A stretch of DNA of 64,000 bases from Sipunculus nudus (lineage: Eukaryota; Annelida; Sipuncula; Golfingiida; Sipunculidae). Below are positions 28,777-58,795 of the stretch, one piece after another (within the stretch, counting starts at the first letter, position 1; the number at the start of each line of letters is the position of its first letter). Both the position numbers and the translations under genes were made by a program. The stretch lies in contig CM049311.1 in the NCBI GenBank assembly GCA_026874595.1, positions 13,297,676 through 13,361,675 of the forward strand, given 5' to 3'. Under the pieces are notes generated by a model that saw only the letters and a program-made list of their open reading frames with translations, was not told where the DNA came from and made no database searches.

Positions 28777-28959
28777 TCATAACTCTTTTATTTGACTGTA
28801 AGGAAACATTTCCATGTATACGATCTGTGTCTTCAGTAGAAAGACTTGTCTCCTTAAACTGAACAAAAGTCCCAGGCGGAAGTCTTGAACACTTACACTG
28901 TCTGGTTTTTTAGGCAAGCTCACATTCACCTCGGAGAGTGGCTCCTCGCATTCATTCAG
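28777..28959 (-). CDS. Gene 1 exon 4 (last helix, stop)
   Basis: Acceptor ttcttttctag, phase 0, 60 codons plus TGA. It starts LNEC and contains the sequon N115-V-S and then the long C-terminal helix. Over 26 residues from LG to FPY it aligns with gene 2 without a gap, with identical L, G, F, R, Q, Y, F, P, Y and another shared L/G-type core. Confidence 0.75.
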   Translation of the reverse strand: MNECEEPLSEVNVSLPKKPDSVSVQDFRLGLLFSLRRQVFLLKTQIVYMEMFPYSQIKEL

Positions 28960-29138
28960 CTAGAAAAGAAAGATCGTATTATTGACAGTTTACTGTATAT
29001 ATATATTATAGAAAATAACTGATTAACATTTACAACTACAGTCGAACCTGTCTGAGAACCCACCTGTCTAATATAACCACCTTTCTGTTAAGACTACCTT
29101 TGGCCAGTCCTACGGCTGGTCATATTGGACAGGTGTCA

Positions 29139-29194
<56 letters not shown>

Positions 29195-32100
29195 ATTATG
29201 ACTTGTTAATATGAAAGAATCCTTCACCACGTAACAAAAAAATGCACGTGTTAGAAATTAAATACAGATGTTCTGCTTTAAATAAATCTTTATAAATCAT
29301 ACTTATTTTCTAGATATTTTTATGGACTGAAAATATTGGTAATTACACGTCCAATATCTCCAACCTGTATGTGTTGATTCTCACCTTTGCCTTAAGAATT
29401 TCGTCAACAGGTTCTAGCTTTTTAAGTATCTTGGTCGCTAGGTCAGTCTGTTCGGTCTCGTTTGTCAGTTGGATTGCCTGAGCTACCCGCTTCCTCATGT
29501 ACATAATCTGGGCCTAAAATGGAACGTGATTCTCGTTAATGCATCTATTGATTCACAATGATTAATCTTTACGCCTGTTTATCTGTTATCATGGAGGGGG
29601 CATATCTCAATTTAGATCACCTTATTCTCTCCGACTTGATTGTATTAAGTTTTATTATATTTTATGGACACATGCAATCTCTTAAAGATGATAATAATAA
29701 TATTCTATTATCATCATCATCATCATTATTATAATAACTATTATACTATAATAACTATTCTTATAATTAGAATAAGCATTAATATGTATAATACAAAATA
29801 ATTGGGTGATTCATTTTCATGAAGGAACATGTCGCAAAAATGAGAAAACGTGTGTATCGAGGAAAATGTCAAAAGTAAATCTTATAACTGAAAAGAAAAT
29901 AACATGCTGGTTGTGTATCAAAGGAAACTGCCATCTTATCCGTTGTATTTAGAACCAGCTATTGCCTAAGTGTCTAATGCTGCGTTTGTTTCCTCTTGGA
30001 TATATGGCGATCACCGGATGTCAATTGGTTCAAACGACTAACAACCCTTTCTACGAAAGTAGCAGAACAAAAGGACCATTTGCCGGATGTATAGTTTCTC
30101 ATAGTAACCAAACAGGAACTGATTTAGAAAATGCTCCATGTATTTGTTCAATTATATTACACTAAAAACTATAGCAAGTAAAATCTAGGTTTTGTTATTT
30201 GCTCTTTGGATGCCGTCAAATGCCGTTGATAAAGGTGAAGGTCGCCAAGCGGGGCGTATGGTGATACTCCAACAAGCTCCAGTTCGCCAGTGGTAAAATC
30301 ACTGGGAGTCTGGGACCACGTGTTAAACGCTATTTCAATTTGTCAGCGCGCTCACTGGGCATACTCTGCCTCTCCAGAATACGGCTTTGCTGTTTAGGGA
30401 TCGTTGGATTCATAATCTGACCCAACAATGCACCGGGTCTTCTAAATAAACCAGTGGCGTAATAATAAATGCAGTGAAGAGGACAAGGCAGTCCGTTTAA
30501 GTGTGTTCGATAAGAAGTATTTCAAGGCAAATTACAATTTTTTTTAGAGAGAAATGTAACTAGAAGATGTTTCCTTTACATGTTACCAATTTTAAAGTTA
30601 GGTAATTGAGACAAGTAGTCCCGGCCGTCCCACAATACCTAAACAGAAGAGATTCGTTTCGAGCGGAGTTCGAGTTCATATTTACCATATAACCTAGAGG
30701 TAAGGAATATAGGAGTGTTATATCTAAAGTGTCTCATATGAATATAACACCATAAGAAGGGCGGGCGGTCAGGAGTGTTTAAATCTAATTTTTTACCATG
30801 GTTACGTTGTCCTTTACAGGCTTGGAAACGTAGGGCAGGTGTGTCAGCCATCTGATTTCCTGCCTATTGGCAAACATTTTGCAGTTAGTCCAGTCTTCTA
30901 AACCGACTAAATCACACTGGAACACCAAGTTAAAAGGTACATGATCATTTAGAATAATATAATGTAATACCTAACCGAAGTATCAAAGCAAAATCATCCC
31001 TGCACACGAACTAACTATCAAGTTCCCCTGTTTCATACGTTGTTATGGTTCCGATCTTGCGTAGACATGGAAACTCCCAAACAAGGAGCAGTTACATGAA
31101 AGAAGAAACACAGAAAAACACAGGTTGGAAGCTTGAAAAATCTAAATTTTTTGTTAAGTTGCGGGTTACGATTAGCAGGTGGCGTGCGCGCTTTCTTTAT
31201 GTTTTGCTCATCGGATCGCGCCCAAATCAAGACTATTTCCAATAATGTATAGGGGTAAGGAAAAGTATTTACATCAAAATCTTGAAAGATACCAGAATAA
31301 ATAAAATAAACACCATACTCCAAGTATATTTAACATGCTTAAGGTATGTGTATAGGCCCCTTATAACAAAGGTCAAATATGCACACATTTAAAACAGATA
31401 TAAAGCGAAATCAATAATTTAGATAAGTTGTTCTGCGACGATTTGTCCTAGCAAAGACGTTCATCGTATTAACCTATGCTTATTTCTGATAAAAATCTTA
31501 ACACCTTTAAACATACAGAGAGGGGGAGAGAGAGAAAAAAAGAGCGGGGGGGGGGGGGAACAGTATGAATGGTTATCTTACTTACGTGGGCCTGCAGAAG
31601 GCAATCTGTGTAATTGTCCAACTCATTATCCTGAAACAGGATGCGGCGAATCTCTGTGGTTCTCCATCCGTCCAACACGCAGAGGTCTTCCATGACAGGA
31701 GCGACTGGTATCACGTGACAAGTGGCCAAAAACATCCACAGGACTCCTGGAAAAACTAAGTATTAATGGAAAACTTTCATACGTCTGTCAACTATTCACG
31801 TCAATTTTACTTCTGTCTTAAAACTAATATATGTCATTGGAACGTATCTATGTAAACACAAAATTAGGTCACTGTGACCTATATTATGCAAGCTACAGGG
31901 TGAATGCATAATTTAGAGCACCCTAAAATAATCAAAGATAGGATTATAATATGATCACGAATCGAGTTTAAATAATTAAACATATATTTTTTTTATCAAA
32001 AGCTTATTTAATTTATAAAATATTCTGAAGATTTCACGTGTTCTAATATATAATGTTATGTCTGTTGTCAGGTACCTGAGGCATCCTTTGGGCAATGACC

Positions 32101-32782
32101 ATCAGCTTTTACGGACTGAGGATGGACTGTCAGTGTAGGCTATAGGTAGCGCCACATGTACTGGCTTTGTTTCTGTGATCTTTGCAATATCCTCCGAAAA
32201 AAACTCACAATTTAAGAGCCAAATTTCATGATTAGGATGTGAAATTAAATAATTACAAAATCACAGTTTTTTTCAATTCTGTTTTAATTTAATTTATTTT
32301 TATTTTGATTTTAAATTTTCATTTATTTATATTGTTAAGCTATTTTTGGAGAGCCAAAAAGGTTTAATTCATTTTAAATTCATTTTTTCTGTGTGGTATA
32401 TAGATCTAAGATCTTGAACCGGACTGTTATTCTCTGAGAAGATTTATATGAACTGTTCTCTGGATTATATGCTTTAAAAGACTTTTTGTCGCTGTGACAG
32501 TGGTGGTATCCAGGTACTGTACACTTTATTTATATACGTGTGTTGATTGACTGTTGTACTGTTGTTATACTGTGTAATTATATTGATTTAGTGTATTGTA
32601 CTGTTAGGATTGTCTTAAGAAGAAATTATAATTATTTGTTAACAAACAACCACTGACTTCTTTATTCATTCCCCTAGACATTTCACGCTGCCTAGTGTTA
32701 CAGAATCTGATCTTTTTTATCTCCATAACTAAATTTATGCTGGTCACGACTACGTGATCTGTTGAATTTAGGTTCCGTAACA

Positions 32783-32814
<32 letters not shown>

Positions 32815-34376
32815 ATATATATATGTTTCACAACTTTTCCTGTTCAAAGTGTACCTTAGTTCAAAAACATTTAATATCCCTTAGCAATCTGCCAATTTAA
32901 GTTTAGCATCATGCCCCATGGCGACCGGCTTAATGATCAATGGATCGTATTATTTTAGCAACTAAAATTACCGTCAGTTTAAACCCCATTTCCTGTTCAC
33001 ATTAAAAATGAATTATAACGGTTATTTTTGGTCATGATCCAACCTATTCTTCTTTCATTCTTTCATTTGTAATTCAAGAAGATTAATCCAAACTATTTTC
33101 TTTATTATAATATTTTTTCGGTAATTAAATAACTAAGATTCCAATTCTAATTTCGTTTTTATCTGGGATTAACAGTCAAAATAAATCATCAAAAATATTG
33201 TTTTCGTATGAAATCATAGGCGCACACCTATAGCACCATTTCGGCCATTCGATATTAAGAGTCTATGACCAGCGTAAAGGCCAAATTATAAGTGCTTCCT
33301 GAGTCAGGTTGTCACGGCTAGTGGACCTTCAGACTGATGTGTACAGGTCGGGTTTCCATGGGCAGAGTTCACAAGGGCCGAGTGCAAGGGGAGTCGTCTT
33401 AGACAAATTCCATCGGGACCCACCTCAAAATAAGATAATTTTCTCATGATTTATGGTAATAAAAGCGAGCCCCTTTGTGGACACAGCAAGGATCATTCCC
33501 GATATGTTAGAACATAAACATGTTATTGGCATTCTGTGCGAGGGCCAGAGAGGAGTTACATGACGACGGCCGAGTGCCACGACCAAAGATTATAAAAGAG
33601 TTAACAAGGTTTTATAAATCTGCATTTTTGCTCAATATATTTTTCTTATTTTAGGCATTTTTATTGTGACTGTAAAAGATATCAGTCAAGGCCCCTACGA
33701 TTAAGTGTTTTCTGATTAACAGCAAGTCGGCGGAACTGAAGTAGATTAGCAGTAATTCACTCACCATTATTCTTCCATGAGGTGGTCAGCCATTTAACAT
33801 GATATTAAGCAAAACACATAAAACATCTTGAATTACAATATATCTATTAGGCAACAAACACAAGATATAAACCTCGTCTGGATTGTAAGATTTTCCCCAT
33901 AAGGCAACCAAATCATTCAGCTTTCACACAAATTCAGTTGTCTGACGGTCTGGACAGAAGTGAGTAAAAAAAGATAACGGTACAAAAACCTTGTTTATCT
34001 TTCGTAGTGATATATGGCTGATATATTCCACCCTCCAACCATCTATAATTCTATCCACTAAGAGTGTAGCAACATTATAAAATAAAATGAACACACCTAC
34101 ATCGCGTTTTTTAAAAGCATTGCTTTTGACATGTGCCAAAACGTGTTGGAAGAACAAAATGGGTGGGTGAATCAAAATCTTATTCGATGATTTCAAACAC
34201 GTAAATTTTATCCAGATGGGAAAATATTTTAAATTGCTATAAGAACAATCAAATCTTTCTTTTATACGGTTTGGAAAAGATTTTGCAATTGATTTGTGAA
34301 AGTCGTATAAAAATAGGGAATAACAAGCCTAGCTCGAAACCGTCAATAGTCACATACCTTGGACGATTCGAAGCAT
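28777..34376 (-). CDS. Gene 1: secreted helical protein, candidate IL-6-like class I cytokine (joined exons)
   Basis: CDS = 34376..34358, 31746..31586, 29513..29385 and 28959..28777, 163 residues. I recognise no exact ortholog. Residues 1-22 form a signal peptide (MLRIVQG, hydrophobic VLWMFLATCHVIPVA). The mature part is rich in predicted helix: TTEIRRILFQ (36-45), AQIMYMRKRVAQA (61-73), ATKILKKLEPV, and a long last helix (about 129-155) with LG at 132-133 and FPY at 155-157. Cys 29, 55 and 107 and sequons at N78 and N115 fit an extracellular protein. All splice sites are GT-AG. Introns 2 and 3 are phase 0; intron 1 is phase 1 after a 19-nt exon, as in IL-6 and LIF genes. The last exon is homologous to that of gene 2. 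A helical growth factor of another family remains possible. Gene structure is more certain than family. Confidence 0.7.
29061..29135. repeat. Imperfect hairpin in gene 1 intron 3
   Basis: CACCTGTCTAATATAACCA (29061-29079) and the reverse complement of 29117-29135 agree at 17 of 19 positions. A (TA)n run (29139-29197) follows. The arm contains ATAACCACC, which resembles the 17-base unit of the satellite at 53.8-56.3 kb. Confidence 0.6.
29139..29197. repeat. (TA)n microsatellite in gene 1 intron 3
   Basis: Nearly pure TA run. Confidence 0.9.
29385..29513 (-). CDS. Gene 1 exon 3 (middle helices)
   Basis: Acceptor ccattttag, donor gtgaga, 129 nt, phase 0 at both ends. It encodes basic and hydrophobic helical residues with the sequon N78-E-T and ends KLEPVDEILKAK, comparable to KLRNLELIIIKE at the same place in gene 2. 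Confidence 0.75.
31586..31746 (-). CDS. Gene 1 exon 2 (signal peptide core and first helix)
   Basis: Acceptor cttagtttttccag and donor gtaagt are both strong. 161 nt; with exon 1 it makes 60 codons exactly. It holds the hydrophobic core, Cys29, a WRTTEIRRILF helix and Cys55. Confidence 0.8.
32783..32824. repeat. (AT)n microsatellite in gene 1 intron 1
   Basis: Nearly pure AT run interrupted by one TT. Confidence 0.9.
34358..34376 (-). CDS. Gene 1 exon 1 (19 coding nt)
   Basis: ATG in good context (CACC before it), six codons plus one base, then donor gtatgt. An ATG 13 bases upstream is out of frame with exon 2, so this ATG is chosen. Joining G to GA of exon 2 gives Gly7 and continues the signal peptide. 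Confidence 0.65.
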
Positions 34377-35080
34377 GGTGAAATCCCATGGTATTGCAGG
34401 TACAAGAGAAATGAGCAAGTTTCACAAACTTATCTGGTTTGAAACGGTACATTGGTGGTGCCCTATTCATAGCCATCAAAGATCTGTTTTATGCCACCGC
34501 CCCCCCCCCCCCCCCCCTTAACACGAACGGATAAACACACCCCAAATCCTCGTTAAAACACGATTTCTGCTCTATTTGATGACATTGATAGTCTGATAAT
34601 ACTGCGTGTTGTTTCAATCGTATCCCTCGCCGCTTTCAGTGAGCCGAATTAATTGAATAATCAATGAGCGTTTACATATTCAAAGGCCATGCGTCAAGGC
34701 AGGTATACTGATGTATGGTACGTCACAAACGAAAGTGCAACGGTTTTGTATCTGTGTAATTTTGATCAAAGCTTATTCGTGCATTTCAGGCATGAACCAA
34801 CGCATTACAAACACTACCTCACGACCACTCGCACACGTGGCGCGTGCAATCCACGTCTTTAATGCTAATACGCACGCTACTCCTCCGCAACAACACTGAT
34901 TATTTATGTAAAACCAATACACAGAGATAAATCCCTAGCCGTGACAACACCACTCAGCACTTAAATGAGACTTGACAGCCAATAGGCTGGTCGCAGACTC
35001 TCAGATGTCAGAAGGCAGAAACAGTGCTAACCAATCCCACCATCAAACATCACGTATTAAAAAATATATGAGTGTGTATG
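34377..35080 (-). promoter_or_regulatory. Presumed 5' flank of gene 1
   Basis: This interval precedes the gene 1 start codon on the minus strand. It contains a run of C bases (34500-34517 on the plus strand) and a CpG-richer block near 34800-34880. I see no convincing TATA box, so the transcription start is unknown. Confidence 0.25.
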
Positions 35081-35460
35081 TTGCTTGTTGTAGGTGTATT
35101 TATATTACAGTTGGTTGGTGTAGGTGTATAATTGTATTATGTTGGTGCTGCAGGTGTATTACGTAAATCAAGAGAAAAATTCAATTATTAAGACAAATTA
35201 GCCTAATTGGAGCTCCAGAGACTGCGCTTCTCATTTCTTAGCAGTTTTTTCCCCGACTTTACTAACGAAAATGAATCCTTATTTCACAAGGCCAGATTTG
35301 GTTCTTTTAATAAGGAGTATCTTTTAAAAAAGTTGTGAAGATGTCAAGTTGTGAAGTCAAAATATCACGTGTCACAAGTTTGTATCCCAATTTTCTGTTC
35401 TGTCGTCGGTCCTAAGCTTTGAAATCTTGATACTTGTTTTGAGGTATAGTCATCAACCTT

Positions 35461-36130
35461 TGCAGCCTTGATGCACCTTTTCAAGGGCTAGGTCAAGTTC
35501 GAACATGGGTGACCTTGACGCATTTTTCAAGGTCATGGCAGCAATATTGTTCAAATGAAGTTAAGGCAATAAAAAAAAATAAGGTACAATCACCAAAGTT
35601 GCCGTGTTGATGCCTCCTATCAAGGGCTAGGTCAAGTTCAAACAAAGGTGACGTTGATGCATTTTTCAAGGTCACAGTTGCAATAATGCTAAAATGAAGT
35701 TAACGAAATAATTCTATTAGGATTTGAAGTAGGGTACAGTTACCAAACTTGCAGCATTGATGCAGCTTAAGAAGGGCAAGCTCAAATTAGAATACGGATG
35801 ACCTTGATGCATTTTTCAAGGTCACGACAGCAATAATGCTAAAATGATGTTTACACAATTACTCGAATAGAATTTGAGTCGCGGTACAAAAAACTTGCAT
35901 CATTGATGCACCTTGTCAAGGGCCAATTCAAGTTCGAACATGGATGAACTGATGCATTTCACAAGGTCACATAGGTGAAAATGATTAAATGATGAAAACG
36001 CAAAACTGGAAAAAAATTTGAGGTAGGATACAGAAACCAACCTTGCAGCATTGACGCACCTTACAAAGGGCTAGCTCAAGTTCGTGACGCATTTTTCAAG
36101 GTCTCATAGGCGATAATGCTAAAATTAAGC
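35461..36130 (+). repeat. Tandem array, about 145-base unit, 4.6 copies
   Basis: Units start near 35464, 35607, 35754, 35899 and 36047 with the theme GATGCACCT..CAAGGGCTAG..CAAGTTCGAA. Each carries a version of TGACCTTGA..TTTTTCAAGGTCA, an inverted pair of extended AGGTCA half-sites. Copies are clearly diverged, so the array is old. Confidence 0.8.
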
Positions 36131-36599
36131 ATTCCGTCGATTGTTCCCCTCGCAGTTTCTTAACAAACAAGGTCCATGTTTGTGGTAGGTTATTATGAGA
36201 TAGAACGATTGTATTGGTTAATATAAAAGATAAAAGGAAAACTTAGTATCGTAAGTAGTCCCTGATGGGAAAAGGAAAGGCCTAGACTAAGGTCCAATGA
36301 ATAGGCCTAGACAAAGGTCCATTGGTCCGGAAAAGGAGGGTCAAGGCCGCAAAAAATGGTCTGACGGCCGTGAAAAACGACTTCGGCGGCTACAAAGAAG
36401 GGGGGGGGGGTCCAGACCCACTGAATCGCTGCTTGATAGCAAGGCGACTCAAACGTGATACCAGCGACCAAGTTAATTGACTATATGTATCTTCTTTTAA
36501 CTTTATCAACCCAAAGAAACGATTGTCATATTGGGGTTTGAACATAATTTAAAATTAATTAAATACCATGCGAATCTCAGTAAAATTTCCCCCCAGAAT

Positions 36600-37565
36600 C
36601 TGGCGTTCGTAAACACTCTGCTATTACCCATGTTAATTTGCAATGAACACGGTCACTGTAATAGGAGAGAAAACCAACTTGTTTCTGCAACTGAACTGGT
36701 ATAGATACTTGCAGCATAAATAAAAATACATGGAGAGCAACTGGGAACGAATTACATTATTATTAATATTATAGTTTTAAATTTTTGTACATAATAGTCT
36801 GTGCTATCAACCACGGTTAAAATGACTATGAATTCTAAATGTCCTTATACCCATCCCGGTTTGAATCATGTAAGTGTAAATGAAATATAGGACCTACGCT
36901 TATCATGCCGTATTAAGTTTTTGATATTAAAATTATCAGCTTGATTCTGGTAAAAAAAAATCCAATAAATACAGAGAGGGAGTACGCCCACAAGCCTTCT
37001 TGCTTTTTTTCCCCACACTGGCAAACGAGTAAATGACATTTTTCGTCTTCATTTTAAAAGAGTTTACCGTAAGTAACGGAAAATTGCGATTTCCGGACAA
37101 GCGTATTTGAACCGAACACGGCAATACTAGTACTAATTGGAGAAAAACCTAATTCGTTTCAGCAACCAGCATGAACTGATACAGAATAATGAAAAATTTA
37201 TGGAGAGCAGGTGGGAACTAATTAATAATCCTTTTCAGTATTTGTACGGGAGTTCGTGCTAGCAACCAGAATTGAAATGACTATGAATTCATAATGTGCA
37301 TATACACCGATCCAAATTTGAATAATGTAAATATAAATAAAATATACGCTTTTCATTCACAGCTAATTGCTGGTGAAAAAATCCCATATAACACAGAGGT
37401 GAGTACTCAAACAAGTTATCTTGTTATTTTTGCCCTACGATGGGCAAAAAAGAGTTTACCGTAAGTAAAAGAGTTTACCGTAAGTAAAAGAGTTTACCGT
37501 AAATAAAAGAGTTTACCGTAAGTAAAAGAGTTTACCGTAAGTAAAGGAGTTTACCGTAAGTAACG
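36600..37565 (+). repeat. Tandem duplication of about 470 bases with internal 19-base minisatellite
   Basis: The segment from about 36610 to 37080 recurs from about 37090: GGAGAGCAACTGGGAACGAA against GGAGAGCAGGTGGGAACTAA, and CAACCACGGTTAAAATGACTA against CAACCAGAATTGAAATGACTA. Both copies end in GTTTACCGTAAGTAACGG. In the second copy this end has expanded into about six units of AAAGAGTTTACCGTAAGTA (37448-37565). Confidence 0.75.
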
Positions 37566-37569
37566 GTAA

Positions 37570-39120
37570 AAGTCGATCACCGGACACGAAATTTTCAGAA
37601 TAAAAATATAATATCAGCCGTAAAAGCGTTTATTTCACCTTTATTACAAAGTATATTTGTACGAAAAGTCGTTCCTTCATGTCAGGGCATATACAAATAA
37701 CAGCATGCAGATACAATTAACGTGTGTGTGAATGAAAATATATAGCTGTAAAATTTACTTTGAGCAGAAATGTATTTATATAGGCCGAAAGCAGATATGT
37801 GAAACTTTATGTGGAATTAATAAATTTGTAAATTTGGTCGAATAATATACTTTATATTTGCCTATATTTTGCTATTTACAATAAAAGGAATTGAAAACTG
37901 TTAACAGTTTGTAAAATGTTTTAGAATTTGGAATTTGAAATCTCAAAATTTTCATTAAAAATAAAAAAATTGCGAATAAGTAAACTATTTTAATAAATTT
38001 AGTACACAAATATTTTATTTAGATACATGCGTTGTTAAACATATAAAGGCATCTAAAAAATAAAAACATAATTGAAAAAATTAAGATTGCATGAATATAT
38101 TGGTTAAGATTAAATTTCGAAATACAGTTAAATTTTTTTCAAAAGAGCAGAATAATATTCAATGGCCGTTTACTGGCTTTGTCTCATAAGATATCCACAC
38201 ATTTCAGACTTTTAATATATTATCATATTTGATTTTGAAGGAAGCTGGTAGAATTGTATTTTTTATATCTAGGTCACATTTACATATGCCAATGGTATAT
38301 TTAATACACATAATTAAATGATTTAGCCTTTTTATATTATTTTATAAGGATGTTTAAATTTTATTTTTATTTTGAAATGATTAAATGTTCACTGGATTTT
38401 GGATATGTCATTTCATATCAACCATGTACCCCGCATTAGCAGGCTGATCATATTCACCACCATCTTACAAATATATGAGCAAAAACACTTCATGAAGATC
38501 CAATTAAGGTCTTCGGAAGAGGATTTAAATGGAAGAACAATCAGTATAATTAATAAAACATTCAAGGATATATTTAAAGGAAAATTTAGAACTGCACCAA
38601 ATTTTAATCAAGCGTTCCACATCAGATTCAAATGCATCCTATATAGGGCTAAACTATATATGTAGAATTGTATAGAAGGACATCAGAGTCAAAGGAGACA
38701 AGAGGCCTATTACCCTGGATGCTGAACAATAACCAGTTAATCACATGTTCGTATACAGAATATAAATATTATGAACGCATTATGCATGAAATATGGCAAA
38801 ATATATATAATTATTATAGAAATATTACAGAATATTTGCAAAGCAATACAAGAGCCACTTGTAAAATGTATAGCCTTGAAATGAGTGATTGATGAAATTC
38901 GATTATTTACGTAACCATAGACATATGGCTATTCAAACGGTGAAGGGGCGAAACTGTTAATGTAATTACTGCACACATCCAGAATTAAAACTGCACATTT
39001 CCACTTAATACTGCACAAATAAGGGTCAACATTACGTCAACATATACCTGAAACAAATACACACGCACACACATAACAAACAACGCATGCAAGAATGGCA
39101 ATGGTCGCCCTGGAAGTAAA
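37570..39120. other. Very AT-rich stretch
   Basis: Two adjacent plus frames (38399..38665 and 38668..38892) are open for 88 and 74 codons, unusual for such AT-rich sequence. They lie in different frames, show no domain and no clear splice sites. They could be a decaying gene or transposon, or chance. Confidence 0.25.
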
Positions 39121-39124
39121 CGAC

Positions 39125-39355
39125 TTACTTTTCATGACGTTTAAATGAAGCAATCTGTAGAGTATCTATCAGGTTCGGGTCATTAATGGTTTCTTGAATG
39201 TACAACTGACAAAGATGGCAAGGTCCCTCGTATTTAAAGTCTATTGACGGAAGTGCGTACTGCGAAGGCTCGGTTTCATTATGACGAAACCCATTTCCGA
39301 GTCGTGAATCTTGAATTGTTTCGAGAGTTTCGTTATCATGCATTTTTAACTCCAC
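39125..39355 (-). other. Possible orphan coding exon between the two cytokine-like genes
   Basis: A minus-strand frame richer in GC than its flanks is open for about 76 codons and runs into a near-perfect donor (gtaagt at 39127). It encodes EGPCHLCQLYIQETIN followed by more helical residues and a sequon (NET). The CxxC start of a helix recalls saposin-type domains, but the partner Cys are not present. The donor phase is 2, unlike the phase-0 introns of the cytokine-like genes. I could not find partner exons. Confidence 0.3.
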
Positions 39356-39587
39356 TTAAACGTTACATCATCTCAAATATCAGATTGTATTTTTGGAGTA
39401 AAAATTTAAGCAAAATACGCATATCCGAAGAATAAATGTAAATCAGAAAATACAGAAAATAAAATTGGAAAGAATCAGCGAAAATTTAATCATCTGCAGT
39501 GCGCCAATACAGCACTTCACAGTTTACAGATTGGTTCAACTAAATCTGAACAGTTTTGATAATCTCCTAAAGGAGTTTGTTTTTGTT

Positions 39588-39592
<5 letters not shown>

Positions 39593-39681
<89 letters not shown>

Positions 39682-39692
39682 AAGAGAAAGAG
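39593..39692. repeat. (TA)n-(GA)n compound microsatellite
   Basis: A TA run (39593-39619) then a GA run (39619-39692), abutting the SINE downstream. Confidence 0.95.
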
Positions 39693-41464: not shown

Positions 41465-41472
<8 letters not shown>

Positions 41473-41496
<24 letters not shown>

Positions 41497-47375: not shown

Positions 47376-47449
47376 ACCTCCAGTATTATGATTTTAAAAA
47401 CAAATTATGGTGAAACTAAACGCCTCCATTTTAACTCAACTACTTCTAT

Positions 47450-47605
47450 TGTGACGGGGTGACATAATAGCGGACCGAACTGTCTCATTAGTGAAGCTTG
47501 CTTTGCTAGTGAAGCGGTTGGTACGCCGGATTTGTACGCCACCCACATGGGTTCTAATCCAGGATCGGCCCAATTTTTTTCCCCCGAGATATTTGTCTTC
47601 ATAAC
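47450..47605 (+). repeat. tRNA-like SINE family B, copy 3
   Basis: Same order as the copies at 5 kb but on the plus strand: GTGACATAATAGCGGACCG, TAGTGAAGCTTG, GAAGCGGTTGGTACGCCGG, a mutated B box (GGGTTCTAATCC) and GTCTTCATAACA. Confidence 0.65.
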
Positions 47606-47914
47606 ATTATGTACATCTGCAGAATACCATTCCAGTTTCGAACTACTAGACAGGGCAATATCACACGCTTTCTCTCATTTTATAGCATGGCGTTAACCAG
47701 GCCCGGTGACTACTGCACCCGTGGGCCCTAGATGCGTAATCGTCCCCGTTGTTGGATCATACCACCGACAAACCCCCGAAAGGCGCACTCGTTTGTGAGT
47801 GAAACACGACCGCGGGGCACGACCTTCCCATTAAGAATGCAGAGCGCTGAGATTCAAACTCACGATCTCCCGACCCTGAGTCCTGTGTTCTACCCGTGAG
47901 CCACGGAAGCTGGT
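47600..47914 (-). repeat. tRNA-derived SINE family A, copy 2
   Basis: Minus strand: an A-box-like GTGGCTCACGGGTAGAA, a B-box-like GTGAGTTTGAATCTC, then a body with GGGACGATTACGCA and AGGGCCCACGGGTG shared with copy 1 at 39691. It is more complete than copy 1 and abuts family B copy 3 in a tail-to-tail arrangement. Confidence 0.7.
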
Positions 47915-48149
47915 TGTATCTTGATAATTGATGCATGGAATCCCATGAATTTTGCCTTAAATATCGACCGTGACTAGTTTTGTCAGTACCCAAAAATTGG
48001 TGGCGCCACATGTATATTTCCTACTTTTTACAATTTTTTTCTATTTTTAGCCTATTAAATGACAGCAATCATGTTAGTTTCACAGCTGTGGTTCATCTAG
48101 TGTCCCGAAACCTGGTGTGTTTATTGATCATTTAGCGGATGCACTATAG

Positions 48150-48660
48150 TAATCACCCTGTCCGTCCGTCTGTTCGTCTTACCGTCCGTCCGTCCGTCCA
48201 TCCACTAATTTGTTTCCAGTTGATTACTCCAGTTTCTATTGACCTATGGATTTCAAACATATGTATAGCAAACCACTAAAGCAAAAACCCTATTAATTTT
48301 GTTGTCATCTGTCGAGGTCACAGGACCCACTTATTTAAAAAGATTGTGGATGCATTTTTAGCCAATCGTTTCGCCCAAAACCTACCATCTTAAGCGTATA
48401 GGTGACCTGCCAATATGGAAAGAACCTTATTGATTTTGGGGTCACAGGGTAAAAGGTCAAGGGCACAGGGGCCATCTGTCCACAAATTAGTTTCAATGTG
48501 ATTTTTTTTTTCTTTAAAAGATTATGGATGCATTTTAAGCCAAACTTTTCATCACAAAACTTTCATTTTCAAGATGTTACTCACCTGCTAATACGGGAAG
48601 TGTCTTTTCGACTTGGGGTCACGGGGTCAAAGGTCAAGGTCACAAGACAGTAAACAATAT
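48150..48660 (+). repeat. GTCC microsatellite and two roughly 175-base repeat units
   Basis: A CCGTCCGTCCGTCCGTCC run (about 48181-48199) is followed by two diverged units, each with AAAAGATTRTGGATGCATTT and GGGGTCACRGGGT..AAGGTCAAGG. This style of repeat is common in bivalve genomes as far as I recall. Confidence 0.55.
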
Positions 48661-48849
48661 TTATATATTATTTTGATATAAGAATTCATAATGTCCATTC
48701 AGTATCAACATAATATTACAAATATTTTTGCTTTTCAATTGTAGGAAAAATTTAAAAATATATATGCATAATTATACATACAACTATATTAAATATGACA
48801 TACTCAAAAGAAATTTTATACAAAATAACGACATACACATGGTGTCCCG

Positions 48850-48945
48850 TGTTGTGGCGCGTCTTGAACCTCTGAAACCAGCTCTTGCTATAAGTCTATG
48901 ATGTCCAGCTTAAGCACTGAACCTTGGCGCAGCATCACATTATAT
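48850..48945 (-). repeat. tRNA-like sequence, probably a SINE head
   Basis: Minus strand: an A-box-like GGTTCAGTGCTTAAGC and, about 45 bases on, a B-box-like AGGTTCAAGAC. The acceptor arms do not pair, so I do not call a tRNA gene. Confidence 0.35.
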
Positions 48946-48959
48946 AGTGACCGGTGAGT

Positions 48960-49865
48960 TTGGGATTTCCTGCGTTGCAAAAACAAAGAAAAGGCATTTC
49001 CTACATTACCTGATTATTTGCTAGCCAGGCGACTTTGCTAATTCTTTCAAAATTTTATGCTTTCCACTTTTCTCTAGGTGCCAGATTATATCAAGCAATT
49101 TGTCCGTGATCTAATGACTCCTCGGGAATGAGATATGATTGGCGATATCCTGCTGAGTTTTCCGAGGTTGTAGCACGGCATAATTATCTGACCATGTCAC
49201 ACTTGTTGTTTGTTTAAATCGAGTACAGTGCGCTTACGTTTCCTAGAATCCACATTGACACAAAATGCCTTCACAAAACCTGCTTTCCTATAAACTATAC
49301 ACGAATTCTATAACACAATTTTTAAGAACAAAAGAACAACTTCAATTAATTATTTTTAATTAATTTCCCTTTAAAGGAAGTTGTTTGTGATCGCGACAGA
49401 ATCTTTAATAAATGCGACAACTAAATAAAGTTATTACTATAGTGACGTTTCCCCAAACCTAGGCCGTTATATGCACTGGGCGCTATTGCAAACAATACTT
49501 GATTAAACCAACAATCCTTTGAGAACGCTGTTGGGTTATTAATTAACACCAAAAAATCTCTGCGATCATGTGAGTCGTTTGTGACATTTGCAGCGTGATT
49601 CCAGGCGCTCCGCAAACAAGGACCAACTTTCATAGCTATGTTATTTTTTTTTATTTCCGCATTAGTAGGGTAGGGAAAGTGGCGGTTTTCCGAGGGAGTA
49701 GGGCACATTTAGGCGGATAAACGGGTGACGAATACACGATATTACACTTTACTATACTGTTTTTCAGCCACTCAGACATTAATAAAATACGTTGTCCACT
49801 TATGCGCACATAAGTCCATTTTTTTTCTGATGGTCTATAGTCCTTCATTATGATATGAGTATCTT
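48960..49865. other. Stretch without a supported gene
   Basis: Two overlapping minus frames (49421-49708 and 49651-49848) are open but anonymous. No splice sites or domains were recognised. Confidence 0.35.
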
Positions 49866-49869
49866 AAGC

Positions 49870-50170
49870 TGATGACCACTGGCTTGGACGACCATCCCGG
49901 TAATACGAGCAGTCCGTTATAACGACCATCCCAGTAACATGACCACTCCCCTATAACGACCATTCCGTTAACAGGACCATTCACCTATAACGACCATCCC
50001 GGTAACATGACTACTCCCCTATAACGACCATTCCGTTAACAGGACCATTCACCTATTACGACCCTCCCAGTAACATGACCACTCCGCTATTAGGACCATC
50101 CCGGTAACACGACCAGCCAGCTATGACGACCACCAGTGTAATATGACCGCCCAACTATAACAACCACCTA
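49870..50170 (+). repeat. 17-base-type minisatellite, small array
   Basis: Units such as CTATAACGACCATTCCGTTA and ACATGACCACTCC repeat across 300 bases. They belong to the same family as the large array at 53805-56340 and lie just beyond the 3' end of gene 2. Confidence 0.8.
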
Positions 50171-50464
50171 GACACGAGACAATCCTTCAAAAGTTTAGTC
50201 GATAGGTGGGAGACGAGGTCAGTCTTTTTTTTTTTCTTTACGCCCCCCCCCCCCCCTGTCATTTTCTTATTCCCTTCGTTTTTTTTATTATTATTATTTT
50301 TTTTTTGCTTCTCAGTTTCTTGCACGGTATTATGATGTATTTAACACAAGAAGATTATTCGTCCAACATATACATATATGAAGTGTCCAATCATTCCTTA
50401 TTTAGGACGACAATTCCTTGTAGCGAAGACTTGGCCAGGGGTCTTGCAAAGACAGATGCTCAAG

Positions 50465-50470
50465 TTTATT
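50465..50470 (-). promoter_or_regulatory. Gene 2 poly(A) signal (AATAAA)
   Basis: AATAAA on the minus strand about 140 bases after the gene 2 stop codon. Confidence 0.5.
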
Positions 50471-50609
50471 ACTTGACAGGCTGTCAGAGTAGCCTTTTTT
50501 AAATGATTCGTTATAGGTTTCATTTTGTAAACATACAATAGTTTTTACACCTTCGGAGCAAAGATTAGGATCACGTGAGCAAATATCAGATACATATTGT
50601 TGGCTGAAT

Positions 50610-50777
50610 TCAATACGGGAATTGTGTGACGTAGGCGAGTTGTGATCTGATCATTTGGTAAAGACGTTGTGCGTTAAACACAGCCCCGAGTCCGTACATC
50701 CGGAGAGAAGTGCTCGGCAAATTAGATGGTACGTTAAATGAGATGGATTTTCCAGGAGACATGTTGCAATGGTGCAT
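50610..50777 (-). CDS. Gene 2 exon 5 (last helix, stop)
   Basis: Acceptor attttgtgcag, phase 0, 55 codons plus TGA. It starts MHHC, comparable to LNEC in gene 1, then a short loop with VPSNLPS, then the C-terminal helix ending QFPY at the stop. Gene 1 carries six more residues after FPY. Confidence 0.75.
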   Translation of the reverse strand: MHHCNMSPGKSISFNVPSNLPSTSLRMYGLGAVFNAQRLYQMIRSQLAYVTQFPY

Positions 50778-53282
50778 CTGCACAAAATATAGAAAAAAGG
50801 AATAATAAATAAAAAAATAAAAGAATAATAAAAAGTGTACAGCAATAAGTAACACTAATACTACTACAACTACTACTTCTACATCTTAAATTTATGATAA
50901 TAAATATCAATAATTATTATCATGATCACTACCATTTTCATCTTAGGTTTTCATATTTTGTAATGGTATTATTAAATTTATCATTTAATAACAAACCTTT
51001 GATTTAGATAATATATATTATTAGTTATAACAAGTAACCCATGAGTCATGACGCTCAGCCGACTGACATGTTGACAATATGTCTATGCAAAGGCAACTAA
51101 TTAAAATAATGTAGGTGGCATCGTATAGTTCATGCATATTAGCTCAAGTTCATCAAGACCCATAAGCACACCAAATTTGATGACAATCCAATCAGCCGTT
51201 CCTGAGGAATCTGGCAAGTTGTGTGTATTTTGCATTATTTCTGGGGGGCTCAAACATGGCCTGTAACTCAGGGAATATAGGTCACAGTGACCTAATTTCA
51301 AGTTTCTTAGGAGAACTTTGAAGAAACTCTCAGGATGTCAAGTTAGAAGTTTCCAGGTACGGTGGTTATGATTTGTGTTAACAGATGATCGCATCTTTAA
51401 AGGTTTCAAAAATATAGAGAAAAATGCTAAAAAATGCTTTTAAAAAATCCGGCTGGCGCCAACAGGCTGCAGGAACAGATGAAACACTCCATTAAAATAT
51501 GCATACAAAGAATCATGGTGATCAATGCATTAGTTGTTCAGATACTGGAGCTAGTGTATCAAATTTTAAATTATTCTGGGGGGGGGGGGGGGTACTTTCG
51601 AGCCTGTTAGCTCGGATGATATGGGTCATAGAGACCTAATTTTAGGTTTCTAAAGTGAACTTTTGAGGAGCTCCTAGGATTTCACGATAAAAGATTCTAC
51701 GTCCAATGGTTATGATTTGTGCCATGCTTTGGTACCAAATTTTCAATTTTTTCTTGGGGGTACTTATAAGCCCCATAGCTCGGAGAATATAGGTAACCGA
51801 GACCAAATTTCAAGTTTCCAAGGAGACTTTTCGTAGACCTCCCAGGATGTCAAGTTAGGATTTTCTAGGCCCAGTGGTTACGATTTGTGCCCTGTTAACG
51901 AAATACCGTATCTTTAAAGGTCTCAAAAATTGAAAAAATGCGTAAAAATTCCTAAATTTCCAGGTAGGGCCACCAGCCTGCAGGAACTAATGTAACACTC
52001 CGTGATTATTATGCATGCAAAGAATCATGGTGATCAATGCATTAGTTGATCAGATACTAGGGATTTTGTATCAAATTTTTAATTATTCTGGAGTACCCTT
52101 GAGCCCCATAGCTCGGAGAATATGGTTAGCAGAGACTTAAGTTCAGGGTTTCTAGGAGAATTTTTTATAGAAATCCCAGGATGTCAAGTTAGAAGATTCT
52201 AGGTCCAGTGATTACGATTTGTGCCCTGTTAACGGACGACCACATCTTTAAAGGTCTAAAAAATAGAGAAAATTGCGTAAAAACTCAAGAAAAAAAATCC
52301 AGGTGGCGCCACCTTTCTACAGAAACTGATAAAATACTCCATGATGAATATGCATATACAAAATCATGGTGATCAATGCTTTAGTTGTTCAGATACGGAA
52401 GCTTTTGTATCATGTTTTAGATTATTCTGAGGGTACTTTCGAGCCTGTTAGCTCAAACGATATAGGTAACAGATACCTAATTTCACGTTTCTTAAGTGAC
52501 CTTTTGAGAAACTCTCAGGATGACAAGTTAGAAGATTCTAGGTCCAATGGTTATAATTTGTGCCATTGGTTAAATTTTATTTCAAATATGGCCACTAGAT
52601 GACGCTAAAACGAGTCGCGGTACTTCTAATCGTAAACCTACTAAAATTACCGAGGAGCCCGATTTTGATGTGTGTGTGTGTGTGAGTGTGTGTGTGTGTG
52701 TGTGTGAGTGAATACAGATAGATAGATAAATATATATATAAAGATAGATACATACATGTATTTATATATGTGTGTGTGTGTGTGTTCAAATCATATGAAA
52801 GTTATAACTTATACATACATTAAGGGCAATAAAGACGTGACATATTCAGACCTCTTTTATGATAATGAGCTCCAGGTTCCTCAGCTTGTGTTCTAGCTGA
52901 GTACCGAGCTGTTTCTTTAAGCGGCAGAAGAACTGCTGGCCCTCGCTGGAGGCAGGCATGAGACAAAAGAATTTGCTGTTCTGCTGGCCGCGGTAAAACC
53001 TGTCAGCCTGGTCGGATTCTAAACTCATCAGTCCAGATGTCAGGTTCTTGGTGGCCCGCACACCCTCCAGGAGATGCTCCAGTTGTTTCTGCTTGTTCCG
53101 GAAAATGATTCAAGAAACAGGTTAAGTTGCGTAAGCGATCATAAAACGCAGTGATGCAAGACCAGTAGCGTCAATTTATCTTCAAGGTTTGGGGGTTCGG
53201 GGGTTGGGTTTGGGGGGGAGGGGGGAGGGGGGCGGGGGGAGTCCAAGGCCTAGGAGCGTAATCAAACTTTTTTTATAAACAA

Positions 53283-53328
<46 letters not shown>

Positions 53329-56300
53329 TCTCTTCGATATATTTAAAAAAAAATTTGTAAGGTTTAAAAAAGTATTAATAATCTTTCCAGTATATGTTAA
53401 TTCTAACCCAGGTTTAGATATATAATATGTCATATTAAACTCAGATATTGAACTAGAGTCTTTAATTCTAACTATTAATATATTTCATTTCCAATATATA
53501 AATATTATTCTCTGATTATCAGGGGGTGATATCATTGGCTATCACCCCTTGCCAAGGGGATATACACCCGATCTCCCCTGTATTGACGCCTCTGTCAATT
53601 GGAATCGAGTCCGGATTCAAGTCCACTTTGTTAGGTACTCGGACTCGGACTTCTATAAGACTTGCAGGTCCTGTGCTAGGAATTGTACTGTGAGGTAACA
53701 AATCGAGAACCAAGTTAGGAAAAAGCATTTGTTAAACTCACATTATTATAAAAAAAATTCAGATTTCTATTTAAAATTATTTTAAATAAATGAAGTGTGT
53801 TTTGGACAGTAACACGACCTTCCACCCGCTATAACGATCACCTATTAACACTAACACCCTACTGAAACAACCACCCAGTAACACGACCATCCCCCGCTAT
53901 TACCACCATCCGTTAACATGAGAAACCCCCGCTATAACGACCAGTAAGTAACACGACCATCCCCCGCTATAACGAGCACCTGTTAACACGAGCATTCCAC
54001 TATAATAACCATCTGGTAACATGAGCATCACCACGCTATTACGAGCACCTGTTAACACGAGCATTCCACTATAATAACCATCTGGTAACATGAGCATCAC
54101 CACGCTATTACGACCAACTGGTAACACGTCCATCCCCCGCTATTGTGACCACCTGGTAACACGAGCATCCCACTAAAACGACCATCCGGAAACACGACCA
54201 TCCCCCGCTATTGTGACCGCCTGGTAACACGAGCATCCCACTAAAACGACCATATGGTAACACGACCATCCCCCGCTATAATGACCACCTGGTAACACGA
54301 GCATCCGACTAAAACGACCATCCGGTAACACGACCATCCCCCGCTATTGTGACCGCCTGTAAACACGAGCATCCCACTAAAACGACCATCCGGTAACACG
54401 AGCATCCCACTAAAACGACCATCCGGTAACACGACCATCCCCCGCTATTGTGACCACCTGGTAACACGAGCATCCCACTAAAACGACCATCCGGTAACAC
54501 GACCATCCCCCGCTATTGTGACCGCCTGGTAACACGAGCATCACACTTTAACGACCATCCGGTAACACGACCATCCCCCGCTGTAATGACCGCCTGGTAA
54601 CACGATCATCCGACTATAACGACCATCCGGTAACACGACCATCCCCCGCTATAATGACCACCTGGTAACACGATCATCCGACTATAACGACCATCCGGTA
54701 ACACGACTATCCCCCGCTTTAATGACCACCTGGTAACACGATCATCCGACTATAACGACCATCTGGTAACACGACCATCCCCCGCTATTGTGACCGCCTG
54801 GTAACACGAGCATCCCACTAAAACGACCATCCGGTAACACGACCATCCCCCGCTATTGTGGCCACCTGGTAACACGAGCATCCCACTAAAACGACCATCC
54901 GGTAACACGACCATCCCCCGCTATAATGACCACCTGGTAACACGAGCATCCCCACGCTAGAACGACCATCCGGTAACATCAGAAACCCCCGCTATAACGA
55001 CCAGTAAGTAACACGACCATCCCCCGCTATTGTGGCCACCTGGTAACACGAGCATCCCACTTAAACGACCATCCGGTAACACGACCATCCCCCGCTATAA
55101 TGACCACCTGGTAACACGAGCATCCCCACGCTAGAACGACCATCCGGTAACATCAGAAACCCCCGCTATAACGACCAGTAAGTAACACGACCACCCCCCG
55201 CTATAATGAACACCTGTTAACACGAGCATACCACTATAATAACCATCTGGTAGCATGAGCATCACCACGCTATTACGAGCACCTGTTAACACGAGCATAC
55301 CACTATAATAACCATCTGGTAGCATGAGCATCACCACGCTATTACGACCAACTGGTAACACGACCATCCCCCGCTATTGTGGCCACCTGGTAACACGAGC
55401 ATCCCACTAAAACGACCATCCGGTAACACGACCATCCCCCGCTATAACGAGCACCTGTTAACACGAGCATACCACTATAATAACCATCTGGTAGCATGAG
55501 CATCACCACGCTATTACGAGCACCTGTTAACACGAGCATACCACTATAATAACCATCTGGTAGCATGAGCATCACCACGCTATTACGAGCACCTGTTAAC
55601 ACGAGCATACCACTATAATAACCATCTGGTAGCATGAGCATCACCACGCTATTACGACCAACTGGTAACACGACCATCCCCCGCTATTGTGGCCACCTGG
55701 TAACACGAGCATCCCACTAAAACGACCATCCGGTAACACGACCATCCCCCGCTATAACGAGCACCTGTTAACACGAGCATACCACTATAATAACCATCTG
55801 GTAGCATGAGCATCACCACGCTATTACGACCAACTGGTAACACGACCATCCCCCGCTATTGTGGCCACCTGGTAACACGAGCATCCCACTAAAACGACCA
55901 TCCGGTGACACGACCATCCCCAGCAATTGTGACCGCCTGGTAACACACGAGCATCCCACTAAAACGACCATCCGGTAACACGACCATCCCCCGCTATAAT
56001 GACCACCTGGTAACACGAGCATCCCCACGCTAGAACGACCATCAGGTAACATGAGAAACCCCCGCTATAACGACCAGTAAGTAACACGACCACCCCCGCT
56101 ATAATGAACACCTGTTAACACGAGCATACCACTATAATAACCATCTGGTAACATGAGCATCACCACGCTATTACGACCAACTGGTAACACGACCATCCCC
56201 CGCTATAACGACCATCCGGTAACACGGCATTTCCGCTATATTGACCACCCTTTCATAGGACCACCCCTATTTTGACCATTCACGACCACCCAGATATAAC

Positions 56301-57995
56301 GATATATATACTTGACCACTTTGCTATGACGACCAGCGCGGCAACATATAGAGACGATTGAGCGCACGACGTTGACTCCTTGATAAATCAAAAATTGCCT
56401 AGCTGGGAATTAGTGGAATTTTTTTTTATATTAGAAAGCTGTGCTGTAAGGAAAAGAACGTAGCCTGGTATTGTTACGGCAGCTAGCTCGTGACTCGGTA
56501 AACAGAACTACCGATATGTGCGAGAGTTTGGCAGTTGTTAGTATGGAAGTGACATCTGGCGGACGGAGATATAACAAGATAATGTATCGAAATCAAATAA
56601 TAAACCTAGTCTCAACAGGCCAATAGCTGCATACGTCTGAATCTCAATCTGCTACGAAGTCAATACGATTAATGGACATTGAAACTTAAATAATGAATTT
56701 AAAGAACAGATAGAAAAAAAGGGGTCATTTGAAAGAAATTCCCGTAAATGTGTGTTGGTCTGCTCATCAAAGCAAATAACAATTGGTTTTCTACACGGAG
56801 GTTATTATTCATTAATTACACCTATCTTCGAAATTGACCTGACCTTTACCCTTTGAACTGACCTGGATTATCTCCTTGGTGTCTGAACTGTTTTGGACAC
56901 AGGGCGGTTGCACTGGTGGAAGGAAGGGACGCCATTTCGATTCCTGCATTCCAGCAAACTCGTGACACGTTTGGCCTCCCAGGGATTTCCTTACACTTGA
57001 CAAGGAGCACTGTCACGTGACATAAACTCATCAATAAAATACTTATGTAGCAATGTTTAATAGAGTTGGCATTTTTACATATATTTACATATGATAACAT
57101 ATATTCATAGATGCAGATGTCGGTCGTGTTACTATTAATATAGGCCTACGTCAATCTTTTCGCATGCACGCACAAATTACAATAATAATAATGATAATAA
57201 AAATACAAATAATAATAATAATACAAATAATATAATTTTTTATGAGACTGTTGCTGGGATATGGGGAATAATGGAAAAGAGTATGTTAGGTTGTCCCGGG
57301 CTTTTTTTTAATACAATGGTATTTTAATACTCTTGAAATTCTTTTCACGTTCCAAGTAAAGAGAAAACATAATTCGTCATAACACTTTCTAACTCCTCAT
57401 GCTATTTCATCACACTAATTCACCGAAAAGCCTCCACCAACATGTGCCGCCCTGGGCGGACCGCCCGTGCCTCCCACACTTTGTTCATGACTCGGTCATT
57501 ATAATTACTATTAATGGTAGTAGTAGTAGTGGTGGTGGTGATGATAGTTGTAGTTGTAGTAGTATTGTCACCACAATTATTATTAATACTACAATTAGAA
57601 GTAGTTGTAGCAGAAGTATAAGATTAGAAGTAGTGGTAGTAGTAGAAGTAGTAGTAGCAGTATTATTGTTTATATTATTATTGTTTTCATTGGTATTATT
57701 GTTATTATAATGATTATGGACATGATTATGATTATTACGTCTAAACCTACTGCGATATACAATAGGAGAATTGGTCACTGAAGCTAAAATAGTAAATTTA
57801 CAGAACAGATAAGAATATTAACGGGACATTTGAAATAAATATGCGTAGGTTGGTGTTGGTCTATTCATCAAAGCAGATATAATTGATGCGTATCTTTTGT
57901 TTTCTACACGGAGAAGGCTTTTCATTAATCTTTAAAAATAATATGGACTAATCTATCGTTTAAATTGACCTGACCTTTGACCTCTGATCTGAGTG

Positions 57996-58063
<68 letters not shown>

Positions 58064-58795
58064 ATTATTACAATTATTTTTAATATAAAAGTTAATAGTA
58101 GTAATAGCAGTAGTAGCAGAATAAGTAGTAACAGCAGCTGTTGTAGAACGCATAGTAGAAGTAGTATTGTTAATATTATTATTGTTATTATTGTTATTAC
58201 AATGATTATGATTATGATGATTATTGTTATATCTCAATCTACTGCGATATACAATAAGAGTATTGCACAAATGAAGCTAAAAAATTGCTTATGATTATGA
58301 TTAATATTATCATCATCATATTAAAGGTAGGCGTCAAGTACTCACGTATGTGACGAGCAGCTGCTCAGTGATTGAGTAGACGATGCTCGCCTCCGTCATG
58401 ATGGTCTGGTTCAGGCTGGCTACGTTACAGTGGAGTGACGGTTTTGAGTTGTCTATCGGTTTAGCAAAACTTATATAAGCAATCCCGGAGAGTAACAGAC
58501 GGACGTGGAACCATACCTGGTCTGTGGATAAATATAATAAAAAAATGTCTAGCAAGTTCTGAAACTGATTCTAATTAACGCCAGTCTTGGTAATATATGG
58601 TTTATAAAACAGTGCTGCCATCTATACTTGTACGTGGTACTAATTTTTTTATGCATTATTTATGGCAATCGAAGTGAAACCGTCGGTGCCTTTCATCCAC
58701 ACACACATGCGCACAAACGGCACCGTTTGTCCAATACGGTTTATTAAACAGTGCTGCCACCTATACTTTTATGTGGTACTCATCTTTTCTTGCAT
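50610..58795 (-). CDS. Gene 2: paralog of gene 1, candidate IL-6-like class I cytokine (joined exons)
   Basis: Best model: 58795..58780 (exon 1, weak), 58521..58346, 56943..56863 (tentative), 53091..52852 and 50777..50610; about 226 residues. Residues 9-25 form the signal peptide core (WFHVRLLLSGIAYISFA) with an ideal S-F-A cleavage site. Helix A is NQTIMTEASIVYSITEQLL; exon 4 has two helices (QKQLEHLLEGVRATKNL and QQFFCRLKKQLGTQLEHKL); the last exon has the final helix with LG and FPY. Four N-glycosylation sequons (NQT, NSS, NLT, NMS) and five mature Cys suit a secreted ligand. Introns are phase 1, then 0, 0, 0. Gene 1 lies 16 kb downstream on the same strand, so this is a tandem pair. The IL-6-family reading is inferred from architecture and helix pattern only. 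Confidence 0.65.
51240..52570 (+). repeat. Tandem array, about 335-base unit, in gene 2 intron 4
   Basis: Units start near 51240, 51575, 51755 (after a partly deleted unit), 52090 and 52427 with TCTGGRGGTACTTNNGAGCC, followed by TAGCTCGGANNATATAGGT, GGATGTCAAGTTAGAAG and AATCATGGTGATCAATGC. Divergence between units is moderate. The array fills most of the intron between exons 4 and 5. Confidence 0.85.
52668..52790. repeat. (TG)n and (GATA)n microsatellite
   Basis: TG runs at 52670-52710 and 52769-52785 flank a GATA/TATA-rich part. Confidence 0.9.
52852..53091 (-). CDS. Gene 2 exon 4 (helices B and C)
   Basis: 240 nt, phase 0 at both ends. The acceptor is a tandem AAG/CAG, allowing one optional Gln. 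The donor is gtctga, weaker than the others; without splicing the frame would stop three codons later as KEV. GC content is clearly above the surrounding introns. Two Cys (KFFCLM, FFCRL) may pair. Confidence 0.7.
53163..53594 (+). mobile_element. Dispersed MITE-like repeat, copy 2, in gene 2 intron 3
   Basis: The ends CAGTAGCGTCAAT (left) and, reversed, CAGAGGCGTCAAT (right) match at 11 of 13 positions, with the CAG..CTG termini seen in hAT-type elements. The interior matches 18112-18480 and contains a (TA)n run (about 53286-53332) and G runs. Confidence 0.65.
53805..56340 (+). repeat. Satellite, 2.5 kb, nested 17/34/68-base periodicity
   Basis: The basic unit is about 17 bases on the theme TAACACGACCATCCCCC / TATAATGACCACCTGG. 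Units alternate to give about 34- and 68-base periods. Larger blocks recur too: AACATCAGAAACCCCC near 54975 and 55150, and close variants near 53920 and 56045. Minus-strand open frames across it merely reflect the periodicity. It lies wholly within gene 2 intron 3. Confidence 0.9.
56863..56943 (-). CDS. Gene 2 exon 3 candidate (loop between helices A and B)
   Basis: An 81-nt frame between an acceptor (tggaatgcag) and donor gtcagt, phase 0 at both ends. It encodes WRPFLPPVQPPC and NSSDTKEIIQ, Pro-rich and suited to a long AB loop. Alternative acceptors upstream break the phase. Gene 1 has no such exon, so it may be optional or wrong. Confidence 0.4.
57505..58066. repeat. Triplet microsatellites (GTA/ATT)n
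   Basis: GTA-rich sequence at 57505-57720 and a pure ATT run at about 57995-58066. Confidence 0.85.
58346..58521 (-). CDS. Gene 2 exon 2 (signal peptide core and helix A)
   Basis: Acceptor tttatccacag, donor gtgagt, 176 nt, entering in phase 1 and leaving in phase 0. It encodes the hydrophobic core, Cys in SLHCNV, a sequon (LNQT) and a strongly amphipathic helix ending EQLLVTY. Confidence 0.75.

Follow-up and report, generated by a model that had tools for sequence, protein, structure and literature searches.

We analysed a stretch of 64,000 nucleotides from the genome of the sipunculan worm Sipunculus nudus (contig CM049311.1, positions 13,297,676 to 13,361,675, forward strand; hereafter the window), which carries on its minus strand two related genes, A and B, whose putative products are secreted, helix-rich proteins. 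The features of the two genes, in window coordinates, are as follows.

34487-34493, minus strand: CATAAAA box of gene A
34358..34376, minus strand: most likely coding part of gene A exon 1; 19 nucleotides, M-L-R-I-V-Q plus G, donor GTATGT; chosen by eye among 45 candidates for having the layout seen in the related genes C to I
31586..31746, minus strand: gene A exon 2; encodes the last part of the signal peptide and the predicted helix A, entered in phase 1
30797..30916, minus strand: gene A exon 3; Cys as residue 1, a second Cys and QE...LP.V, resembling an AB loop
29385..29513, minus strand: gene A exon 4; 43 amino acids, in which helices B and C are predicted
28777..28959, minus strand: gene A exon 5; its residue 4 is Cys, and it has a loop, a hydrophobic terminal stretch resembling a helix, and TGA as stop
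58346..58521, minus strand: gene B exon 2; encodes the core of the signal peptide and the predicted helix A, entered in phase 1
56863..57009, minus strand: gene B exon 3; related by homology to the third exon in gene A and in each of the seven further genes
52852..53088, minus strand: gene B exon 4; 79 amino acids, with the B-type insertion and its two extra Cys, weak donor GTCTGA
50610..50777, minus strand: gene B exon 5; its residue 4 is Cys, and it has a loop, a terminal stretch that resembles a helix and ends in FPY, and TGA as stop

A sequence-only reading of this DNA had proposed a tandem pair of spliced minus-strand genes for secreted cytokines of the IL-6 family. Both genes are present. 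Read from the sequence and from agreement between paralogues, every boundary of exons 2 to 5 is AG...GT in A and in B, and the phases fit as 1, 0, 0, 0. Exon 3 of gene B closes the gap that separates the exon for helix A from the long exon 4; it starts with Cys, as in gene A, and also holds the second Cys, QE and LP.V. The ATG at 58795, which had been taken as the start of gene B, was not accepted because the stretch is partly repeated nearby and the donor, judged by eye, is weak; a scan of 15 kb upstream gave no convincing exon 1. Gene B might be a decaying copy, given the missing first exon and the weak donor of exon 4, though its frame is intact. Much of its intron 3 is occupied by a minisatellite array (53809-56230), and a smaller one (49888-50166) lies just beyond its 3′ end, the units being about 34-35 and 68 bases. 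Open frames resembling reverse transcriptase of long interspersed nuclear elements were seen by eye at 25871-26491 (plus strand) and 61012-62019 (minus strand).

The last exons of the two genes are homologous, as the sequence-only reading had it. When the window was searched with exon 5 of gene A (tblastn, composition statistics off), gene B came out as the second match, with an expect value (E) of 3.7e-6, and the next match had E 0.14. Within the 26-residue stretch from LG to FPY we counted nine identities rather than the ten reported. The LG pair, which had been read as a sign of a cytokine, occurs in A and B only; in gene C the pair is PA and in the remaining six it is LA, and since the G is not conserved we reject this argument. 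In contrast, the Cys that forms the fourth residue of the final exon, also pointed out earlier, proved invariant in all nine genes of the family described below.

To search the organism's own genome (1.43 Gb) we used genes A, B, E and C as queries; because only the best candidates were scored, all locus counts are lower bounds. The family comprises at least nine intact genes (A to I) plus degraded copies, most of them in a single 0.33-Mb cluster on the chromosome of the window (C6). At least 12 loci lie there between 13.072 and 13.399 Mb. In at least eight (A to C and E to I) exons 2 to 5 are all intact, and at least four are degraded or broken: L038 has three in-frame stops in exon 4, the exon-5 match of L043 breaks off ahead of the FPY end, L058 has a stop in exon 4, and L059 consists of fragments only. 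The tandem pair is thus real in both members, but as a description it was too modest. Gene D is intact and lies outside the cluster, at 2.16 Mb on the same chromosome. Weak matches were found on C3, C5, C7 and C13 (E 1.5 to 9.8) and on C8 (E 0.39). On C1, another contig of chromosome size, there are apparent dispersed copies of gene B (L045, L046 and L047, at C1:50206203-50241021 and C1:80257812); these fragments share about 63-76% identity with its exons 2-3, and some contain stops.

Exons 2 to 5 and the phases 1-0-0-0 are identical in plan in all nine intact genes; in G, H and I one boundary each was shifted by one codon after the splice sites had been re-read. The genes fall into an A-type (A, C and D) and a B-type (B and E to I), the latter marked by an exon 4 insertion of about 30 or more amino acids with two more Cys. 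Coding lengths by exon are 19-161-120-129-183 in gene A and 19-170-147-237-171 in gene E. Profiles of the two types align over 152 columns with E 2.1e-12 and a score of 81.5 (hhalign), whereas the best of 100 column shuffles scores 20.5. Fourteen columns, three of them Cys, are invariant in all nine genes: in the numbering of gene B from exon 2 they are L54, C59, C73, E81, L88, P89, Q109, V117, C190, P203, R224, Q232, F239 and P240. Each gene also has a Cys near the start of helix A, which does not form one aligned column. Sequons, noted earlier for A and B, are found in eight of the nine proteins; D has none.

Divergence within the family is fast, with identities of 18-56% in 35 of the 36 pairs. 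Nevertheless, the proteins are under constraint. The ratio of nonsynonymous to synonymous substitution rates (dN/dS; Nei-Gojobori, given here without a significance test) is 0.18-0.62, below 1 in all of the 18 pairs, out of 36, with a computable dS. Half of these 18, with dS above 1.9, cannot be relied on; the nine pairs with dS below 1 give 0.31-0.62, and the closest pair, E and F, has dN 0.042 and dS 0.137, a ratio of about 0.3. These results bear on the alternative that we are looking at chance open frames in repeat-rich DNA and not at genes. The window is indeed repeat-rich, and gene B has no convincing first exon and a weak donor after exon 4. However, the exons, their phases, the Cys and the end of the frame are common to nine loci, the profiles of the two types match far beyond their shuffled controls, and dN/dS is below 1; for the family as a whole the chance reading is refuted.

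The beginning of the genes is less firmly placed. In eight of the nine genes a short first coding exon of 6-7 codons was chosen by eye (19 nucleotides in seven genes, 22 in C), with a phase-1 donor and a TATA-like box some 70-120 nucleotides before the ATG. Since each gene offered 7-86 candidate starts (45 for A), the TATA-like box had no shuffle control, and direct similarity between first exons was seen only for G/H and for the recent duplicates E/F, each single choice is provisional. What makes them evidence is that the choices agree among genes. With these exons, a plausible signal peptide or hydrophobic leader, judged by eye, would run across exons 1 and 2 in eight of the nine genes, all but B.

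We compared this anatomy with that of known helical cytokines. The coding exons of human IL6 measure 19-191-114-147-168 nucleotides, those of CSF3 40-164-108-147-156, those of EPO 13-146-87-180-156 and those of GH1 10-161-120-165-198; by simple arithmetic each set sums to the length of the protein and gives phases 1-0-0-0. The new genes share with IL6 and CSF3 the five coding exons, the phases and the short first exon, which in IL6 consists of 6 codons and 1 base. In IL-6 (for which the sequence letters we used agree with the PDB chains) exon 3 starts T-C-x5-C, exon 4 holds helices B and C, and exon 5 contributes a loop together with helix D, which runs up to the stop. Likewise, exon 3 of the new family opens with a Cys pair, C-x(7-19)-C, and helices B and C are predicted to share one exon, with a loop and helix D in the last. 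Amphipathic windows fall in exon 2, around the border of exons 3 and 4, and at the end of exon 4, the places of helices A, B and C; no set of genes has one at the place of helix D. Over all nine genes, 35 of 202 overlapping windows reach p 0.05 or below (about 10 expected); for B-type genes by themselves the figure is 19 of 203, and for A-type genes, which show one more segment in exon 3, it is 17 of 165.

The five-exon 1-0-0-0 plan, together with the Cys pair of exon 3, makes these genes cytokine candidates. Our preferred explanation, to which we assign a probability of about two in three, is that A and B, together with at least seven relatives, code for secreted class I helical cytokines of the long-chain kind that act on a receptor of the gp130/Domeless type. 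Membership of the IL-6 family in particular is not established; EPO and GH1 have the same five-exon plan. EPO also opens its exon 3 with a Cys pair, T-G-C-x3-C. EPO and GH1 differ from the new family in their disulfide layout, and the new family has no Pfam match to theirs. From IL-6 and CSF3 the family differs in the absence of detectable sequence similarity and in the insertion in exon 4 of the B-type, and two of its Cys, one being the fourth residue of exon 5 and the other lying near where helix A starts, recall LIF, not IL-6. The sequence-only reading, which had called A and B IL-6-family class I cytokines, is thus partly supported: secretion and a class I-like gene plan speak for it, while no IL-6 family profile is matched.

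Among invertebrate ligands two invite comparison. Insect Unpaired proteins (Upd1-3), the ligands of Domeless, are likewise invertebrate, secreted and directed at a gp130-like receptor, a likeness by description only (PMC13203501). The oyster protein CgIFNLP, which two papers describe as interferon-like and as resembling helical cytokines (PMC8218723, PMC9756803), can be set beside the family in the same descriptive way. Its receptor is reported to have activated human STAT reporters (PMC8218723, PMC9756803). CgIFNLP differs from the family in being about 15 kDa and, in these descriptions, class II-like.

A rival explanation is that the new genes encode class II helical cytokines of the interferon or IL-10 type, as claimed for CgIFNLP (PMC9756803). 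Class II cytokines are also secreted helical bundles with clustered genes. According to one source (PMC2654155), genes of the IL-10 type have five exons with no split codon, whereas human IFNL2/3 have six, with an extra short first exon of four amino acids and a phase-1 intron followed by phase-0 introns. What is seen here closely resembles the beginning of IFNL2/3, so class II stays alive as a rival. Still, neither plan fits, as the new genes combine five exons with phases 1-0-0-0, and the proteins have no Pfam interferon or IL-10 match; we regard a class II identity as quite improbable. The plan without split codons is not confined to class II, as the same source also lists IL3 and IL21, two class I cytokines, under it (PMC2654155). 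The comparison of the two classes is asymmetrical, because our receptor search covered class I-like receptors only.

That search used the IL6Ra-bind profile, which found seven weak places genome-wide, none over the cut-off. This fits an invertebrate, as vertebrate genomes have many receptors of the kind. At one of them (C4, 57.937 Mb) lies a gene resembling a class I receptor. Its joined exons give a D1 domain DLQCVSRDFDDLLCRW, an fn3 domain with LWSEPQ at the place of WSXWS, and what looks by eye like the start of a further fn3 domain. The D1 domain carries the C...C-x-W pattern of class I receptors CVSRDFDDLLCRW, and LWSEPQ is a variant, not the canonical WSXWS. A 242-residue segment of this gene matches fn3 above the cut-off (E 7e-9); below it are PF09240 (E 0.001), the purple acid phosphatase N-terminal profile (E 0.002) and EpoR_lig-bind (E 0.33). 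Its best PDB match is an fn3 stretch of DCC (E 9e-5) and not a cytokine receptor, followed by IL-31 receptor alpha and neogenin (both at E 0.003). The fn3 part alone is thus not specific, and the case rests on the D1 domain and the domain order: the segment is colinear with D1-D2 of gp130 (E 0.06) and also with IL-31 receptor alpha. On this evidence the gene looks like a gp130-like class I receptor. The STAT_bind domain was found above the cut-off on two contigs.

A number of results weigh against the class I cytokine explanation. To the missing first exon of gene B, the scarcity of direct similarity between first exons and the ranking of DCC as best match of the receptor-like segment must be added the following. 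The last, very hydrophobic stretch, the putative helix D, did not pass the periodicity test in any set of genes. No credible Pfam match was obtained for the nine proteins, and no cytokine family (IL6, LIF_OSM, CNTF and others) was among the matches, nor was there a credible PDB sequence match for the proteins. Alignment of the family profile to human IL-6, LIF and CSF3 (hhalign, 100 shuffles each) was not credible in any case: the LIF and CSF3 scores were exceeded by 20 and 83 of 100 shuffles, respectively. The alignment to IL-6 scored above all 100 shuffles (E 0.0086, probability 4.7%, 19 columns) and was rejected, since it set helix A of IL-6 against exon 4 of the family, a mismatched helix. 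A JAK-linked profile had no match in the genome, and none in any control genome either, so that absence is not shown; a profile of molluscan haemocyanin behaved in the same way. Finally, promoters and 3′ ends held no consistent excess of kB, GAS, AP-1, STAT, C/EBP or ATTTA/AU-rich elements, in a scan of seven promoters (F being a duplicate of E, and B having no exon 1) and seven 3′ ends (those other than F and G). One kB pattern had 3 matches against 0.4 expected, all of them in gene I, a number reached by 3 of 100 shuffles.

The same lack of any sequence relation to a known family would be expected if the genes belonged to a lineage-specific family of secreted helical proteins with another role, for instance in gamete recognition, mucus or as pheromones, evolving by birth and death in a cluster. 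Several degraded copies in the cluster and the fast divergence fit this alternative as well. The gene plan close to that of long-chain cytokines and the conserved Cys framework, on the other hand, speak against it, as does dN/dS below 1 in 18 of 18 computable pairs, with about 0.3 for E and F; we consider it unlikely.

If the genes do encode class I cytokines, a TATA promoter would drive a five-exon gene in which a phase-1 intron splits the signal peptide after 6-7 codons. The mature protein, of roughly 180-220 amino acids, would fold as a four-helix bundle, with helix A from exon 2, an AB loop closed by the Cys pair of exon 3, helices B and C from exon 4, and the CD loop and helix D from exon 5. 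The cytokine might then bind and pair a gp130/Domeless-like receptor, for example the product of the C4 gene, which would signal through JAK and STAT. Whether the family goes further, being truly homologous to vertebrate long-chain class I cytokines and serving as clustered immune ligands of a gp130-like receptor, we see as evenly balanced. Were this so, the 1-0-0-0 plan of IL-6, EPO and growth hormone would predate vertebrates, and the 'missing' invertebrate ligands of the IL-6 type would have been overlooked only through sequence divergence. A BLAST survey of 2026 (E 1e-5, at least 30% identity) places IL-6 family cytokines in vertebrates only, and states that an IL6R-type receptor, found from Mollusca on, already co-exists in that phylum with JAK and STAT and that there may be ligands of other kinds (PMC13203501). 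A family of nine genes and a gp130-like receptor in one genome would provide concrete candidates for such ligands. No report of such a gene family was found in the open-licence literature, as covered by titles and the beginnings of abstracts. Using the exon plan and the Cys framework instead of sequence identity offers a search method for any invertebrate genome.

The genome searches also brought up sequences of another kind. Contigs C60, C61, C62, C66, C72, C74, C75, C89 and C123 are probably bacterial, and the assembly may contain several bacterial genomes, of symbionts or contaminants. Open frames of the COX1 type, 577-578 amino acids long, occur at nine places on eight contigs, and C123 (112 kb) has a frame whose translation, by eye, resembles a subunit of a cbb3-type oxidase.

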